A DNA stretch of 64,000 nt from an uncultured Verrucomicrobiales bacterium (GTDB lineage: Bacteria > Verrucomicrobiota > Verrucomicrobiia > Verrucomicrobiales > DEV007), in assembly GCA_937891465.1 (NCBI GenBank), contig CALAHF010000163.1, positions 1-64,000 on the forward strand, read 5' to 3'. A model generated the notes under the pieces. The model did no database searches. It was not told the origin of the DNA and saw only the letters and a program-made list of their open reading frames with translations. The number at the start of each line of letters is the position of its first letter. Position 1 is the first letter of the stretch. The position numbers and the translations under genes were made by a program. Of this stretch, positions 28,180-58,389 are shown piece by piece.

Positions 28180-28207
28180 TTGAAATTTTATCAAAATATT
28201 ATAAATA
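28180..28207 (+). promoter_or_regulatory. candidate promoter of the zinc-ribbon protein operon
   Basis: The 169-nt gap before the 850-residue gene is strongly AT-rich. TTGAAA (28180-28185) and TAAATA (28202-28207) are spaced by 16 nt and would give a leader of about 35 nt. In such AT-rich DNA a match of this quality can occur by chance. Confidence 0.35.
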
Positions 28208-52581: not shown

Positions 52582-53502
52582 TCACTTTTCGCAAACGGCC
52601 ATGAGCGTTTGAAAATGCGGTGACTCACTTTCGCGATCGACCACCGCGATGTCCGGGTTCTTCTCAAAACCTGCGTTCGTCAGAAATTCCGAAATTTCCA
52701 ATTCAGAGAATCCAAGCCATTCGTCGGCGTAAAGTTCACGAGCATCTTCGAACGTGTGTTTCAACAAATCGAGAATCACGATCTTGCCGCCTGGCTTTAG
52801 GATACGATGCCCTGCCGTGATCGCTGCCTGTGGATTCGCCGCGTGATGAAGCGCCTGGCTGAAAAATGCAATATCGATCGTACCGTCATCAATCGGCGGA
52901 TTTTCGATATCTCCCACACGGAATTCCAGATTCTTGAATCCGTTATCTTTTGCCGTTTCGGAGGCGAACTGGACCATTTTCTCCGAATTATCGATCGCGA
53001 TGACACGTTCTGCTTTTTGGGCAAGCAACTGGGAAAAAGTCCCCTCACCCGCTCCGAGATCGGCAATAATCATCGGAGGCATCAGTTTGAGAAGTGTCTC
53101 GGCGAGCCCCTTCCAAGAACGGCCGGGGCAATAGGTTTTGCCAAATTTTCCGGCGAGGGCATCGAAATAAGCGCGAGCTTTGTCTTTTCGTTTATTTAAA
53201 ATCAGGCGGAGCGCCGCGGAATCTGTGGTGGTTTCGTCGACTTCCGTCGCTGCTAGGTTGATGGCTGAAACGAGATCAGCATCGAGTTCACCGAAGCTGT
53301 AGATTACGTTTTTTCCAGATCGGCGATCAACCACGAGACCTTCGGCTTTGAGCTGTGAAAGTTGCGTCGAAATCCGAGATTGCCCCATCGCGAGGATTTC
53401 CTGCAGTTCAACAACCGATAAATCTTCCTGACGGAGCAACGATAAAATCCGTAACCGTGTGGAATCAGCAATCAGCCGAAGACTTTTTAAAATGGACGCC
53501 AT
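52582..53502 (-). CDS. ArsR-family regulator fused to a SAM-dependent methyltransferase
   Basis: A 306-residue two-domain protein. The N-terminal 90 residues are an ArsR winged helix (D-S-T-R-L-R-I-L-S-L-L, S-R-I-S-T-Q-L-S-Q-L as recognition helix) without obvious metal-binding cysteines. From about 125 a class I methyltransferase domain follows, with SAM-binding D-L-G-A-G-E-G-T-F. ArsR-type regulators that control the S-adenosylmethionine cycle (SahR) are known in proteobacteria, and here metK and ahcY lie 2 kb away; the promoter regions of this gene and metK share a 29-nt motif. Binding of SAM or S-adenosylhomocysteine in the methyltransferase fold as a signal is the inference. Confidence 0.9.
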   Translation of the reverse strand: MASILKSLRLIADSTRLRILSLLRQEDLSVVELQEILAMGQSRISTQLSQLKAEGLVVDRRSGKNVIYSFGELDADLVSAINLAATEVDETTTDSAALRLILNKRKDKARAYFDALAGKFGKTYCPGRSWKGLAETLLKLMPPMIIADLGAGEGTFSQLLAQKAERVIAIDNSEKMVQFASETAKDNGFKNLEFRVGDIENPPIDDGTIDIAFFSQALHHAANPQAAITAGHRILKPGGKIVILDLLKHTFEDARELYADEWLGFSELEISEFLTNAGFEKNPDIAVVDRESESPHFQTLMAVCEK

Positions 53503-53604: not shown

Positions 53605-54648
53605 TTACGACGAAGATGGGTCACCAATATCAATGTCTTCAAATTCAACGAGCACCTCAAGGGCATCTTCAATAGTGGCTCGCGCGTGCGCTGTCATCAT
53701 ATGGAGGTAAGCATGAATTTTAGCATCGGCCGTGTTTCGGTTTTCACATTGCGCGCTGTATTCTTCAAAACCGTTTAAAGCCTTCAGCAGAGCGGCGAGG
53801 TGATTCGGACACTCGCAGTCTACAGCAGAAGAAATGTTAGAAGCCTTTGCAATCTGGGAGTTGCTATACTTTCGCTTCCGAATACCCCCTTTGTGATCTT
53901 TGGGCTTAGGCGCCTCATCAATAATCGCTGACGCAGACCTTCCAGCCAGTGCAATGTCGGTTTCACAGGCCTCGCGCAGTTCTGAAAGTGAGACAGGCGC
54001 CCTGATGGCAGATATCAATCCACTATCATCACTGATCTTTTCAAGAGTGCGCTCCTGAGCATAGGCATATACCAGAATGGCTCTTAAGGCACGGAAACGA
54101 CTGATAATTCGCCGAACCCGATTCACCTCCTCGTCAAAGAGCGCCGAAATTTCGACAAACACAAGATCAGCTTCGAATCCTGTATCACAAGACTCTGCGT
54201 CCTCCAGCGTTTTGAATTCCGTGATCGTCGCTTCATCATCAACAAATGCGCTACCAATATTAACGGTCGTAACCAAATGCTCCCCGATCACTGCGATTCG
54301 GCATCGGCGAACTTTATCATTCTCTTTCCAACCTTTAACCGATGCGTCGCTTGAAGAAACTTTAGAGCACTCCTCAAGACGCCTTTCAAGTTCCACGATG
54401 GGAAGCCCAACCAGCGTGCGAATCCCATGTCCGCGGTCAGAAAGGGCCTTCAGCAGGGTCAGTCTCTGAACCTCCCTCCTTGAATACTGCCGATGCCCTC
54501 CCTTTGTCCGGCCCGGATTGACGGCCTGATGGCGCTTCTCCCACATCCGTAGACCGGGCGCGGTCAACCCGGTGAGGCGGCAAACGGCCGCAATGTCGTA
54601 AACGTCGTCGGCTGAGGGTTTACTGGCTTTCACTTCCGTTTCAGGCAT
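53605..54648 (-). CDS. MerR-family regulator with central receiver-like region
   Basis: A 347-residue regulator. The N-terminal MerR helix-turn-helix spans about 15-90 (Y-D-I-A-A-V-C-R-L-T-G-L, R-M-W-E-K-R-H, G-G-H-R-Q-Y-S). A central alpha/beta region at about 115-225 contains L-V-F-V-E-I and resembles a receiver or B12-binding fold lacking their key residues. The C-terminal 80 residues carry C-E-C-P-N-H-L-A-A-L-L and C-E-N-R. The domain order is like LitR/CarH relatives. Two small genes lie upstream, 54685-54861 directly before it, and a repeat array further up. Confidence 0.82.
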   Translation of the reverse strand: MPETEVKASKPSADDVYDIAAVCRLTGLTAPGLRMWEKRHQAVNPGRTKGGHRQYSRREVQRLTLLKALSDRGHGIRTLVGLPIVELERRLEECSKVSSSDASVKGWKENDKVRRCRIAVIGEHLVTTVNIGSAFVDDEATITEFKTLEDAESCDTGFEADLVFVEISALFDEEVNRVRRIISRFRALRAILVYAYAQERTLEKISDDSGLISAIRAPVSLSELREACETDIALAGRSASAIIDEAPKPKDHKGGIRKRKYSNSQIAKASNISSAVDCECPNHLAALLKALNGFEEYSAQCENRNTADAKIHAYLHMMTAHARATIEDALEVLVEFEDIDIGDPSSS

Positions 54649-54684
54649 GAGATTTAAAGGTGGGTTCGAAATTTCTAAGGGCCG

Positions 54685-54861
54685 CTAATTAGAGGCGAGC
54701 TCGGTCTTCTTCGGCCGGGCCGCAAGCAAGGATGCTAGGATCACCTCTTCAGGAGCTTCCAAGATAGCTGATGCAATTCGCACGAAAGCTTTGTCTTCAA
54801 ACGAGAGTTCTGGGCGATGCAAACTAGGGCGGGGCTTTCCGAGTGAGATTTGAGTGTTCAT
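54685..54861 (-). CDS. 58-residue protein of unknown function
   Basis: A short frame starting at the ATG at 54861. It reads as a helical polar protein: F-E-D-K-A-F-V-R-I-A, S-A-I-L-E-A-P-E-E-V-I-L, ending K-K-T-E-L-A-S-N. It ends 36 nt before the MerR-type regulator gene, so it is probably in the same operon. The start is not backed by a clear ribosome binding site. Confidence 0.5.
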   Translation of the reverse strand: MNTQISLGKPRPSLHRPELSFEDKAFVRIASAILEAPEEVILASLLAARPKKTELASN

Positions 54862-54973
54862 TTTGATATGTTTTAGATGTTTGTTTGTGGGAGCGGAATA
54901 TTTCAGAATGCGATCAGTTGCTCTTGCAGATTTTTGCCAGCGCGACAGCCTCTTTCCGGGCAGTAAACTCTTC

Positions 54974-55072
54974 CTAACGAGCCTTTTGACACATGAGTAG
55001 GAACTTTAGGACCACGCCAATCAGCGCGAAAACGAATGGAAAACACAGGATAAGGGCAGCTTGATCAGTCAT
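54974..55072 (-). CDS. 32-residue single-pass membrane peptide
   Basis: An ATG at 55072 opens a 32-codon frame, nearly all of it one membrane segment (A-L-I-L-C-F-P-F-V-F-A-L-I-G-V-V) with a basic C terminus (C-Q-K-A-R). Small hydrophobic peptides are common but hard to confirm; no ribosome binding site is visible. The 112 nt between this and the next small gene (54862-54973) show no other signal. Confidence 0.4.
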   Translation of the reverse strand: MTDQAALILCFPFVFALIGVVLKFLLMCQKAR

Positions 55073-55155
55073 TGTTTGTTTTTTGTTTAATTACCTCTAC
55101 TAAATGATGAAACGTTTTAAACAAAAATCCGGATGCTTCCTATTTTGTTTATTTA

Positions 55156-55184
55156 TTGATTAACAATTGATCAAATGTTGATTA
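55156..55184. repeat. three TTGATYA repeats at 11-bp spacing
   Basis: TTGATTA at 55156-55162, TTGATCA at 55167-55173 and TTGATTA at 55178-55184 start exactly 11 bp apart, so they lie on one face of the helix. They are in the gene-free stretch 55073-55317, upstream of the two small genes and the MerR-type regulator on the minus strand. The rest of this stretch is AT-rich near the repeats and otherwise unremarkable. A cooperative operator is the simplest reading. Confidence 0.6.
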
Positions 55185-55317
55185 GCTTGCAAAAAAGCCA
55201 CTTCAGGAAAGATCCCCACCGACTCCATTCCAACCGATGCCAGTCTTCCGCGGAGCTGCGAAGACCTCAGGGATTCCATGCTTTGCAAATTCAAGACACG
55301 GCGCTCAGGAATTCGAA

Positions 55318-55554
55318 TCACTCTATCCCGAACTTTTCTTTGAAACTCTGAATCTCGCTCCAGACTGAATCCATCACTTTTTTTGAGACGCGCGTAAAAA
55401 TCGAAGCAAGGACCTCCCCACCCTCGTCTACAACACCATTTTCCAGCGCCAGTCGCTTGAGCATCGCAAGTTCATCTGCGGCGATCGTGTCGCCATTTCC
55501 GAAAATAACGAGAAAAGAGTATGCAATCGAACGGCGAGAATTTTCATCAACCAT
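55318..55554 (-). CDS. hypothetical protein, 78 residues
   Basis: A small helical protein. The stretch D-T-I-A-A-D-E-L-A-M-L-K-R-L-A and V-D-E-G-G-E-V-L is reminiscent of TerB-like or tellurite-resistance helical bundles, but it is too short for a firm call. I chose the ATG at 55554; the frame is open to 55605. It is divergent from metK with about 160 nt between. Confidence 0.6.
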   Translation of the reverse strand: MVDENSRRSIAYSFLVIFGNGDTIAADELAMLKRLALENGVVDEGGEVLASIFTRVSKKVMDSVWSEIQSFKEKFGIE

Positions 55555-55644
55555 TTTGAAAAATAGGTGAATTTTCAAATGACCGAATTTCGAATTTTGC
55601 GACATTCATCCTCGCTTTTGCTACCCATTTTGCTTCTAAAAAAA

Positions 55645-55673
55645 TTGACGAACGCAATCCACAAGCGTATGAA
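55645..55673 (+). promoter_or_regulatory. metK promoter
   Basis: TTGACG (55645-55650) and TATGAA (55668-55673) are spaced by 17 nt, a strong sigma-70-type match. Transcription would begin near 55680, leaving a leader of about 33 nt, too short for a SAM riboswitch. The shared 29-nt motif begins at the end of the -10 box. Confidence 0.72.
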
Positions 55674-55701
55674 TCAACGTATCTAGATTTGTAAATACGA
55701 A
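55673..55701. promoter_or_regulatory. candidate operator upstream of metK
   Basis: Same 29-nt motif as at 53519-53547. In this copy CGTAT (55678-55682) and ATACG (55695-55699) are inverted around CTAGATTTGTAA, so the site is partly palindromic. It covers the predicted transcription start, where a bound repressor would block metK-ahcY. Confidence 0.65.
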
Positions 55702-55712
55702 ACATTAAAATT

Positions 55713-56894
55713 ATGAGTAATTCCTATATTTTCTCTTCTGAGTCAGTCACCGAAGGGCACCCAGATAAGGTGAGCGACACTATTTCTGATGCTGTGGTCG
55801 ATGCGTGCTTTGAGCAGGACATCAATTCCCGCGTTGCCTGTGAAACAATGGTGAAAGACAACCTCGTCGTTCTCGGCGGTGAAGTCACCACTTCTTCGCA
55901 GTTCGATCACCGTGAAGTCGTTAAGAAAGCGATCGAAGGAATCGGTTACACCACGAAAGACTGTAAGTTTGATGCTTCAAACTTCCTTTTCATCAATGCA
56001 CTCGGACAGCAATCTCCGGATATCGCGCAAGGTGTTGATGCCGCTGGTGCTGCCGATAAGGGCCACGAAGAACAGGGTGCGGGTGATCAGGGCATCATGT
56101 TTGGCTATGCTTGCACCGAAACTGAATCGCTGATGCCTGCGCCGATCGCGTGGTCGCATCACCTCGGCAAAAAGCTGACGGATCTTCGCAAAAGCGGCGC
56201 TCACTCCTGGCTTCGTCCTGATTCTAAGACTCAGGTATCGATCGAGTATGTTGATGGAAAACCAAAACGCATCACGGCGGTTGTTATTTCAACTCAGCAC
56301 TCGGCAGATGTTACCACAGCTGAAATTCGTGAGGCGCTGAAGAAAGATCTCATCGACGTGGAGCTTCCTGAAGATCTTTTGACGGATGACACGGAAATCC
56401 TCATCAACCCAACCGGCCTCTTCATTATTGGCGGACCTGAAGGCGATTGCGGACTTACCGGACGGAAGATCATTGTTGATACCTACGGCGGCATGGGTCG
56501 TCACGGTGGTGGTGCTTTCTCCGGAAAAGATCCATCAAAGGTTGACCGTTCAGCTGCCTACATGGCGCGTTGGGTTGCGAAAAACGTTGTTGCTGCCGGC
56601 CTTGCTGAGAAGTGCGAACTCCAGCTTGCGTATGCAATTGGTCACCCACAGCCAGTTTCTGTTCACGTTGATACATTTGGCACAAACAAAGTCGACGATA
56701 CAAAAATCGTTGCGGCAGTGAAGGAAGTTTTCTCCTTCAAGCCAGCGGACATCATCACGCAGCTCGACTTGCTCCGCCCAATTTACAGCCACACCACCAA
56801 CTATGGTCACTTCGGTCGCGAAGATAATCTCGATGCATTGACTTGGGAGAAAACTGACAAGGTCGACGATCTGAAATCGGCGGCTGGTGCGTAA
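55713..56894 (+). CDS. metK: S-adenosylmethionine synthetase
   Basis: A 393-residue MetK that makes SAM from methionine and [11 protein letters not shown] near the N terminus, the ATP-binding [11 protein letters not shown] and [18 protein letters not shown] are present; length is as usual. ahcY follows 82 nt downstream with a 43-nt repeat in the gap, and the two form the SAM cycle unit. Confidence 0.97.
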
Positions 56895-56976: not shown

Positions 56977-58389
56977 ATGAGTGAATTCACAGACTATAAA
57001 GTAGCGGACATCAGTCTCGCTGATTGGGGACGGAAGGAATTTTCCGTCGCAGAACACGAAATGCCGGGCCTGATGGCGACGCGCGAAAAGTATTCAGCTG
57101 AAAAGCCGCTTCAGGGTGTGCGCATCATGGGATCGCTTCACATGACGGTTCAGACGGCGGTTCTTATCGAAACGTTAGTAGAACTCGGCGCGGATGTTCG
57201 TTGGTGCTCGTGCAACATTTTCTCGACTCAGGATCACGCGGCAGCAGCGATTGCAGCAGCTGGCATTCCTGTTTTCGCCTGGAAAGGCGAGACGCTCGAA
57301 GAATACTGGGAGTGCACTATGTCTGCTCTGACATGGCCTGACGGCAGCGGTCCTGAGCTGATCGTTGACGACGGCGGTGACGCGACGCTTCTGATCCACA
57401 AAGGTGCTGAGCTCGAAGAAGGTGCTGATTGGGTCAATACGCCTTCCGAAAGTGAAGAAGAAGGCATCATCAAGGCGCTTTTGAAAAAGGTACACGCTGA
57501 ATCTCCCGGCAAGTGGACGAAGTATTTCGAAGACTGGAAAGGCGTTTCCGAGGAAACCACGACTGGTGTTCACCGTCTCTATCAGATGGCTGAGTCTGGT
57601 TCACTTCGCGTTCCTGCGATCAACGTGAATGATTCGGTAACGAAGTCGAAGTTCGATAACCTTTACGGTTGCCGCGAGTCTCTCGTGGACGGCATCAAGC
57701 GCGCTACTGACGTAATGATTTCCGGTAAAGTCGGCGTTGTCTGCGGTTATGGCGACGTTGGCAAAGGCTGTGCTCAAGCGCTTCGCGCGCAGGGTGCCCA
57801 GGTGGTTGTTACCGAGGTTGATCCAATTTGTGCGCTTCAGGCGGCGATGGAAGGCTTCCGTGTTTTGACGGTCGAAGACACGCTCGGTTGGGGTGATATT
57901 TACGTCACTACAACGGGCAACAAAGACATCATCCGCTTCGAGCACATGGAAAAGATGAAGGATCAGGCGATCGTTTGTAACATCGGCCACTTCGACAACG
58001 AGATCCAAGTTGCACCGCTCAACAATGCTGATGATGTCACTCGTGAAGAGATCAAACCACAGGTTGATCGCTACACATTTCCTGACGGAAAGCAGATTTT
58101 CATGCTGGCAGAAGGTCGCCTCGTCAACCTCGGTTGCGCGACAGGTCACCCAAGCTTCGTGATGTCGAACAGCTTCACCAACCAGACACTGGCGCAGATC
58201 GATTTGTGGAAAAACCGCGAGACGAACAAGCCAAGCGTGACGGTTCTTTCGAAAGAGCTTGATGAAGAAGTTGCACGTCTCCACCTCGAAAAAGTGGGCG
58301 CGAAACTGACGACGTTGACTACTGAGCAAGCTGATTACATCGGCGTTAAGCAAGGCGGCCCTTACAAGCCTGATACTTATCGTTATTAA
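56977..58389 (+). CDS. ahcY: S-adenosylhomocysteine hydrolase
   Basis: A 470-residue AhcY, which splits S-adenosylhomocysteine to homocysteine and adenosine using bound NAD. The NAD motif [24 protein letters not shown] and the C-terminal K-P-D-T-Y-R-Y are all present. It relieves product inhibition of methyltransferases. A strong terminator follows 40 nt after the stop. Confidence 0.97.

Follow-up and report, generated by a model that had tools for sequence, protein, structure and literature searches.

Two arrays of 11-bp-phased repeats as probable self-operators of a CarH-related MerR regulator in an uncultured Verrucomicrobiales bacterium

In a 64,000-nucleotide stretch of DNA from an uncultured Verrucomicrobiales bacterium (hereafter the window), two arrays of direct repeats in 11-bp phase, designated O1 and O2, lie at the head of a minus-strand operon that ends in a gene for a MerR-type regulator (Table 1). 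Judged from sequence comparison, O1 and O2 are probably operators for this MerR protein itself, that is, autoregulatory sites of the CarH-like, head-to-tail kind. The protein's DNA-binding domains, which resemble that of CarH, would occupy the 11-bp direct repeats cooperatively, in head-to-tail order along one helix face, and the bound MerR would block the operon's promoter and start region, resulting in negative autoregulation. Release would follow from a signal—possibly light or oxidative stress—sensed via the receiver-like and CECPxH-containing C-terminus.

Table 1. Features of the putative autoregulated operon in the window
Feature	Positions	Strand	Description
MerR regulator	53605..54648	-	347 aa; DNA-binding domain resembling that of CarH (17-77), receiver-like domain (~112-240), helical C-terminal part containing CECPxH
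Small ORF 2	54685..54861	-	58 aa, no Pfam match
Small ORF 1	54974..55072	-	32 codons, hydrophobic by eye
Array O2, candidate operator	55061..55089	-	three 11-bp-phased units: TAAACAA, CAAACAA, TGATCAA
AAAACGTT block	55111..55118	-	common to the window's promoter and that of the G076 orthologue; distance to the start codon, counted by hand, 46 bases in the window and 45 in G076
Array O1, candidate operator	55145..55184	-	four 11-bp-phased units, coding strand 5'-TAATCAA, TGATCAA, TAATCAA, TAAACAA-3'

The initial annotation had described three TTGATYA repeats in exact 11-bp phase, ahead of two small genes and a MerR gene that form a minus-strand unit; direct reading of the sequence confirmed the repeats (TTGATTA, TTGATCA, and TTGATTA starting at 55156, 55167, and 55178; TTGATYA-N4-TTGATYA-N4-TTGATYA, 55156-55184), and the gene order was found to be as described. 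Two elements had not been reported there, namely a fourth in-phase unit, TTGTTTA (55145-55151), and the second array, O2, with units starting at 55061, 55072, and 55083, which spans the small ORF 1 start codon; nor had the likeness to CarH operators been noted. O2 thus touches the ATG of small ORF 1 and could be an A-rich translation-start context instead of an operator; O1 starts ~72 bp upstream of this first start codon. No sigma-70-like consensus promoter was found in 54600-55720, and no known RNA family reached its gathering score in the window.

With up to three mismatches allowed, the exact triple has four matches in the window, all within O1 and O2 and one being the 55156-55184 triple itself read on the minus strand, whereas shuffles lead one to expect 0.01. 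With up to two mismatches it is unique in the organism's own genome (5,967,073 bases, 95.6% complete), apart from an overlapping match at 55145. Taken alone, however, the triple is only moderately striking, and the case rests on comparison, because single TTGATYA heptamers occur in the window at about twice the expected frequency (46 versus 23.8) and a scan, at spacings of 8-15, for 7-mers in three copies that agree in 6 or more of their 7 positions returned two further, near-perfect loci with 9- and 14-bp spacing, where shuffles averaged 0.0-0.1 at each spacing. These other arrays lie at 28193 and 44184. Both observations would fit a chance product of AT-rich intergenic DNA, but this reading is very improbable and was rejected, given that O2 lies within the same 125 bp, neither array type recurs elsewhere in the organism's own genome, and an array is found at the orthologue. 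With respect to confinement, the exact motif TGWTYR-N5-TGWTYR-N5-TGWTYR has four matches in the own genome (G000) and the orthologue's genome (G076) combined—two overlapping in O1, one in O2, and one in the orthologous promoter—and reversed-pattern controls have none in either; the motif was derived from these very sites and G076 is 63% complete, so that the result shows confinement, not independent discovery.

The orthologous MerR, 56% identical, was found in one of the 74 family genomes, that is, in G076, which represents another genus. A homologue at E <= 1e-20 is present in 51 of the 74, own genome included, the 56%-identical protein occurring in G076 only; among 386 genomes of the order, no further orthologue was found at E <= 1e-75, with only G000 and G076 matching. 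Ahead of the G076 gene lie two small genes like those of the window's operon, the counterpart of small ORF 2 being 67 aa long, and an array with 11-bp spacing that reads TAAACAT/TAAACAT/CAAACAA on the coding strand, against the four O1 units of the window (Table 1). When the promoters are aligned, the O1 unit TAAACAA falls on the first unit of the G076 array, and from this common unit the window array runs on upstream and the G076 array downstream. The two promoters also have TAAACnAAAnACAAACAATG in common at the start codon that O2 spans. The expectation that the array would be conserved upstream of orthologous MerR genes held for the sole orthologue found, where the 11-bp array and the three-gene order are kept; the exact heptamer is not. 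In the tree, the window copy and its G076 orthologue group together (100/99), apart from a clade comprising the paralogue of the own genome and most sigma-linked homologues (95/96). Three genes that encode the C-terminal two domains without the DNA-binding domain, L046 (5472-6227), L048 (9850-10599), and L050 (7683-8438), group beside the window copy; that of L050 adjoins what we take to be a sigma-like gene.

The same gene order and 11-bp array at the orthologue bear out the preference, voiced in the initial annotation, for an operator over replication-type iterons. Iterons are likewise evenly spaced direct repeats in AT-rich DNA, but the array sits on a 154,147-base contig, and the five nearest minus-strand ORFs include, by Pfam, no replication initiator and instead the MerR and an ArsR-methyltransferase. 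The flanking plus-strand genes, named by eye, are metK and an ahcY-like gene, and in many genomes arrays of this type precede MerR homologues. The iteron reading, to which hardly any probability attaches, was rejected on account of these neighbors without an initiator and of the recurrence before MerR homologues.

The gene that we take to be metK (plus strand, 55713-56894) is divergent from the operon and is followed by a presumed S-adenosylhomocysteinase-like (ahcY-like) gene (56977-58389, plus strand). Close to both, an ORF at 52582-53502 on the minus strand encodes a methyltransferase joined to an ArsR-type DNA-binding domain (Pfam), possibly a regulator of the SAM cycle. Within the operon, small ORF 1 carries an in-frame TAG, and its G076 orthologue is longer, at 57 aa. 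Past this TAG (54974-54976, minus strand), similarity to the longer orthologue continues in frame (EEFTARKEAVALAK versus EEFTARREAVAFAK), and the window copy may be truncated, read through, or an assembly variant.

CarH is a repressor that senses light, and its operators are described as tandem 11-bp repeats of the form nnnnTnnACAn, three to four or more in number, over promoter elements (PMC9304148). Upstream regions of the homologues contain TTGTCTA/TAGACAA or TGAACA repeats, with the TnnACA core of CarH operators, at exactly 11 bp. In 18 such regions, the window left out, 13 repeats of 6 bases were counted at lag 11 (shuffle mean 1.66, maximum 6), whereas each of the other lags between 7 and 30 gave 0-5; 11 of the 13 are, by eye, of the TGTC/GACA kind. 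This count omits L046, L048, L049, L050, and L051, and the region used there for the window is that before the MerR gene, without O1. Furthermore, two nnRACA units 11 bp apart, one or both beginning with T, are present in 37/43 verrucomicrobial upstream regions, a figure to be read with the expression having been picked after the sequences were seen and with the window scoring positive via O2, not O1. Other spacings from 8 to 15 gave 1-4 of 43, and controls gave 3/719 for windows from the same contigs and 1/146 for AT-rich windows. The six regions without such a pair are L032, L033, L047, L079, L092, and L094; omitted from the pair count are L049, L051, and L098 (truncated) and L046, L048, and L050 (no DNA-binding domain).

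Three units of TGTNNA at 11 bp, matching in at least 11 of 12 letters, were found in 5/43 verrucomicrobial and 5/28 proteobacterial regions, and at other spacings from 8 to 14 in none except 1/28 at 9 bp; this count omits L049, L051, and L098, with L046, L048, and L050 counted apart (0/3). In both the pair and TGTNNA counts, the region taken lay upstream of the first operon gene for the window and its orthologue and upstream of the MerR gene for all others, and a single genus (g2) contributes many of the rows, which means that the homologue counts are not independent events. Most homologues have only two good units rather than three. Among the lags counted in 31 proteobacterial regions, 11 is commonest (15) and 21 next (13), some of the lag-11 repeats being of another motif; no 11-bp pair was found before the Burkholderia and Caballeronia plasmid homologues L192 and L193. 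Because the TGWTYR motif is confined to the arrays and the orthologous promoter, because RACA pairs recur in 37 of 43 regions, and because lag 11 stands out in Proteobacteria too, a self-operator is the most likely reading.

The letters of the arrays argue in part against a CarH-type reading: three of the four O1 units read TRATCAA, which departs from the CarH core TnnACA in one letter, and the exact core is found in one of the four O1 units and one of the three O2 units, compared with four exact units in the array of the paralogue. That array is the only exact three-unit TGTNNA match in the own genome, with four phased units before the paralogue (reversed control, 1). It lies at G000:C165:107015-107053 (in L029), and its four exact 11-bp TnnACA units are directly upstream of a divergent sigma-like gene. 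A wider regulon of the TTGTCTA type was not detected elsewhere in the own genome, where two-unit matches with up to two mismatches number 11, versus 31 for the reversed pattern, without excess. The main array O1 appears to have drifted, with TRATCAA for TnnACAA. Alternatively, O2 would be the site of the operon MerR and the TRATCAA units of O1 would serve a different regulator with the same 11-bp phase, since three of the four differ by one core letter from TAAACAA or TGAACAA. This division is unlikely, with all O1 units keeping the phase of the TAAACAA unit, the one aligned to the orthologue's array, O2 itself holding one TGATCAA unit, and no further three-unit array of the O1 or O2 type having been found in the own genome.

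Classical MerR proteins activate transcription. The arrays may accordingly serve activation, with the MerR bound upstream of the promoter, and the beginning of O1 ~72 bp ahead of the first start codon fits the position of an upstream activator; O2, however, extends over the start codon, and the CarH operators in the literature overlap promoter elements (PMC9304148), leaving activation a lesser possibility than repression.

The regulator to which the self-operators are assigned is, by its sequence features, a little-studied relative of CarH and not CarH itself. Its DNA-binding domain matches Pfam MerR_1 (E 8.2e-15), and the best PDB match of this domain only is CarH 5c8d (E 5.3e-9 for the protein alone, 7.4e-17 for a profile); models of HspR and of CarH score equally high there (44.5 bits, with a cut-off of 105). 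The protein falls below the cut-offs of both the curated CarH family NF052513 (41 bits versus 400) and the BldC family NF033787 (18.3 bits versus 77). Beyond the DNA-binding domain, the rest of the 347-aa protein has no match at the Pfam cut-off, and 44 homologues gave, at Pfam E <= 0.01, helix-turn-helix families and one weak LEM match only, with no B12 family. In the AlphaFold model (mean pLDDT 86.0, pTM 0.46), the predicted middle domain (~112-240) matches receivers (3crn, VIA Z 13.9, 2.6 A over 123 residues), and the C-terminal part is modelled as helical. Full-length Foldseek matches are headed by CarH chains (best E 8.5e-6) with an rmsd of 16-21 over ~285 columns, indicating that the domains of the two proteins do not superpose together.

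In 44 aligned sequences, C278, E279, C280, P281, H283, C301, and H312 are invariant. CECPxH is present in 46/49 homologue ORFs, the exceptions being L049 (a fragment), L051 (truncated), and L076. The B12 motif [DE]xHxxG (DxHxxG) was found in 0/49 homologue ORFs and 0/46 rows of a second set, the 49 including one 14-residue fragment and one truncated ORF and some loci being common to both sets. Because none of the homologues examined carries the motif, a sensor other than that of CarH is to be expected.

CarA of Myxococcus xanthus keeps a B12-binding-type domain. It is described as a B12-independent CarH paralogue that binds CarH's operator and is derepressed by CarS (PMC9304148), and the window MerR, with its predicted B12 independence, resembles it by description only. 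CarH, or class I LitR, proteins (Thermus thermophilus, Bacillus megaterium, Myxococcales) are like the window MerR in the DNA-binding domain of MerR type and the 11-bp repeat spacing, whereas the window protein has no [DE]xHxxG and instead a receiver-like domain and a CECPxH helical part, and its main array reads TRATCAA. Class II LitR proteins (Pseudomonas PmlR2/PplR) are thought not to bind B12 and belong to photolyase clusters, but differ in keeping a 4-helix bundle domain and in binding TGTACA-N12-TGTACA (PMC9758184). For class III LitR of Burkholderia multivorans, a C-terminus that resembles no functional domain and a light-dependent absorption change are reported (PMC9758184); the possible likeness is drawn from this description and from a Burkholderia anthina homologue with CECPRHL. 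Vibrio cholerae VCA0056, a MerR-like protein whose gene is predicted to form an operon with phr, is stated to be needed together with ChrR for the blue-light response, and is likewise similar by description only (PMC5241685). BldC is a MerR-like protein that binds head to tail on direct repeats, but consists of 68 residues, the DNA-binding domain only, with 9-bp sites (PMC5859096), as opposed to 347 aa and 11-bp spacing here; the likeness is in the direct-repeat arrangement.

Genes for ECF sigma factors or for photolyases often lie next to the homologues. Among 126 ORFs near verrucomicrobial homologues (46 regions), 32 have sigma-70 region 2 and 9 are FAD amine-oxidase-like, but 14 are housekeeping LepA; some of the nine look like phytoene desaturases. 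Proteobacterial neighbors (103 ORFs, 28 regions) include 8 with a photolyase FAD domain and 4 with the photolyase-related DPRP domain, and the Burkholderia anthina plasmid homologue (CECPRHL) is located inside a sigma/SDR/FAD-oxidoreductase/photolyase cluster. These neighbors suggest a light or oxidative-stress role for the homologue family; beside the window's operon, no sigma, photolyase, or FAD-oxidase-like gene was found. In three genomes (G076, G009, and G020), what we assume to be an ADP-ribosylglycohydrolase-like gene lies near MerR homologues (L075, 11142-12164; L030; L051). A literature search found no work joining Verrucomicrobia, MerR, ECF sigma, carotenoid, and light.

Overall, it may tentatively be proposed that a MerR family widespread in Verrucomicrobia and Proteobacteria has had its B12 photosensor replaced by a pseudo-receiver and a helical domain with invariant Cys and His residues (CECPxH...C...H), which might sense light or oxidants via a bound metal or cofactor, with the 11-bp code of CarH kept. 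Its genes would often be divergent to an ECF sigma gene in Akkermansiaceae-like genomes, and the window copy would have split off, controlling its own small-protein operon only and with a shifted code. The paralogue with exact TnnACA, set against the window copy with TRATCAA, offers a natural test of a duplicated regulator changing its site, and the sequence-level operator code gives a testable regulon for a large unannotated LitR/CarH-like branch without the B12 motif.
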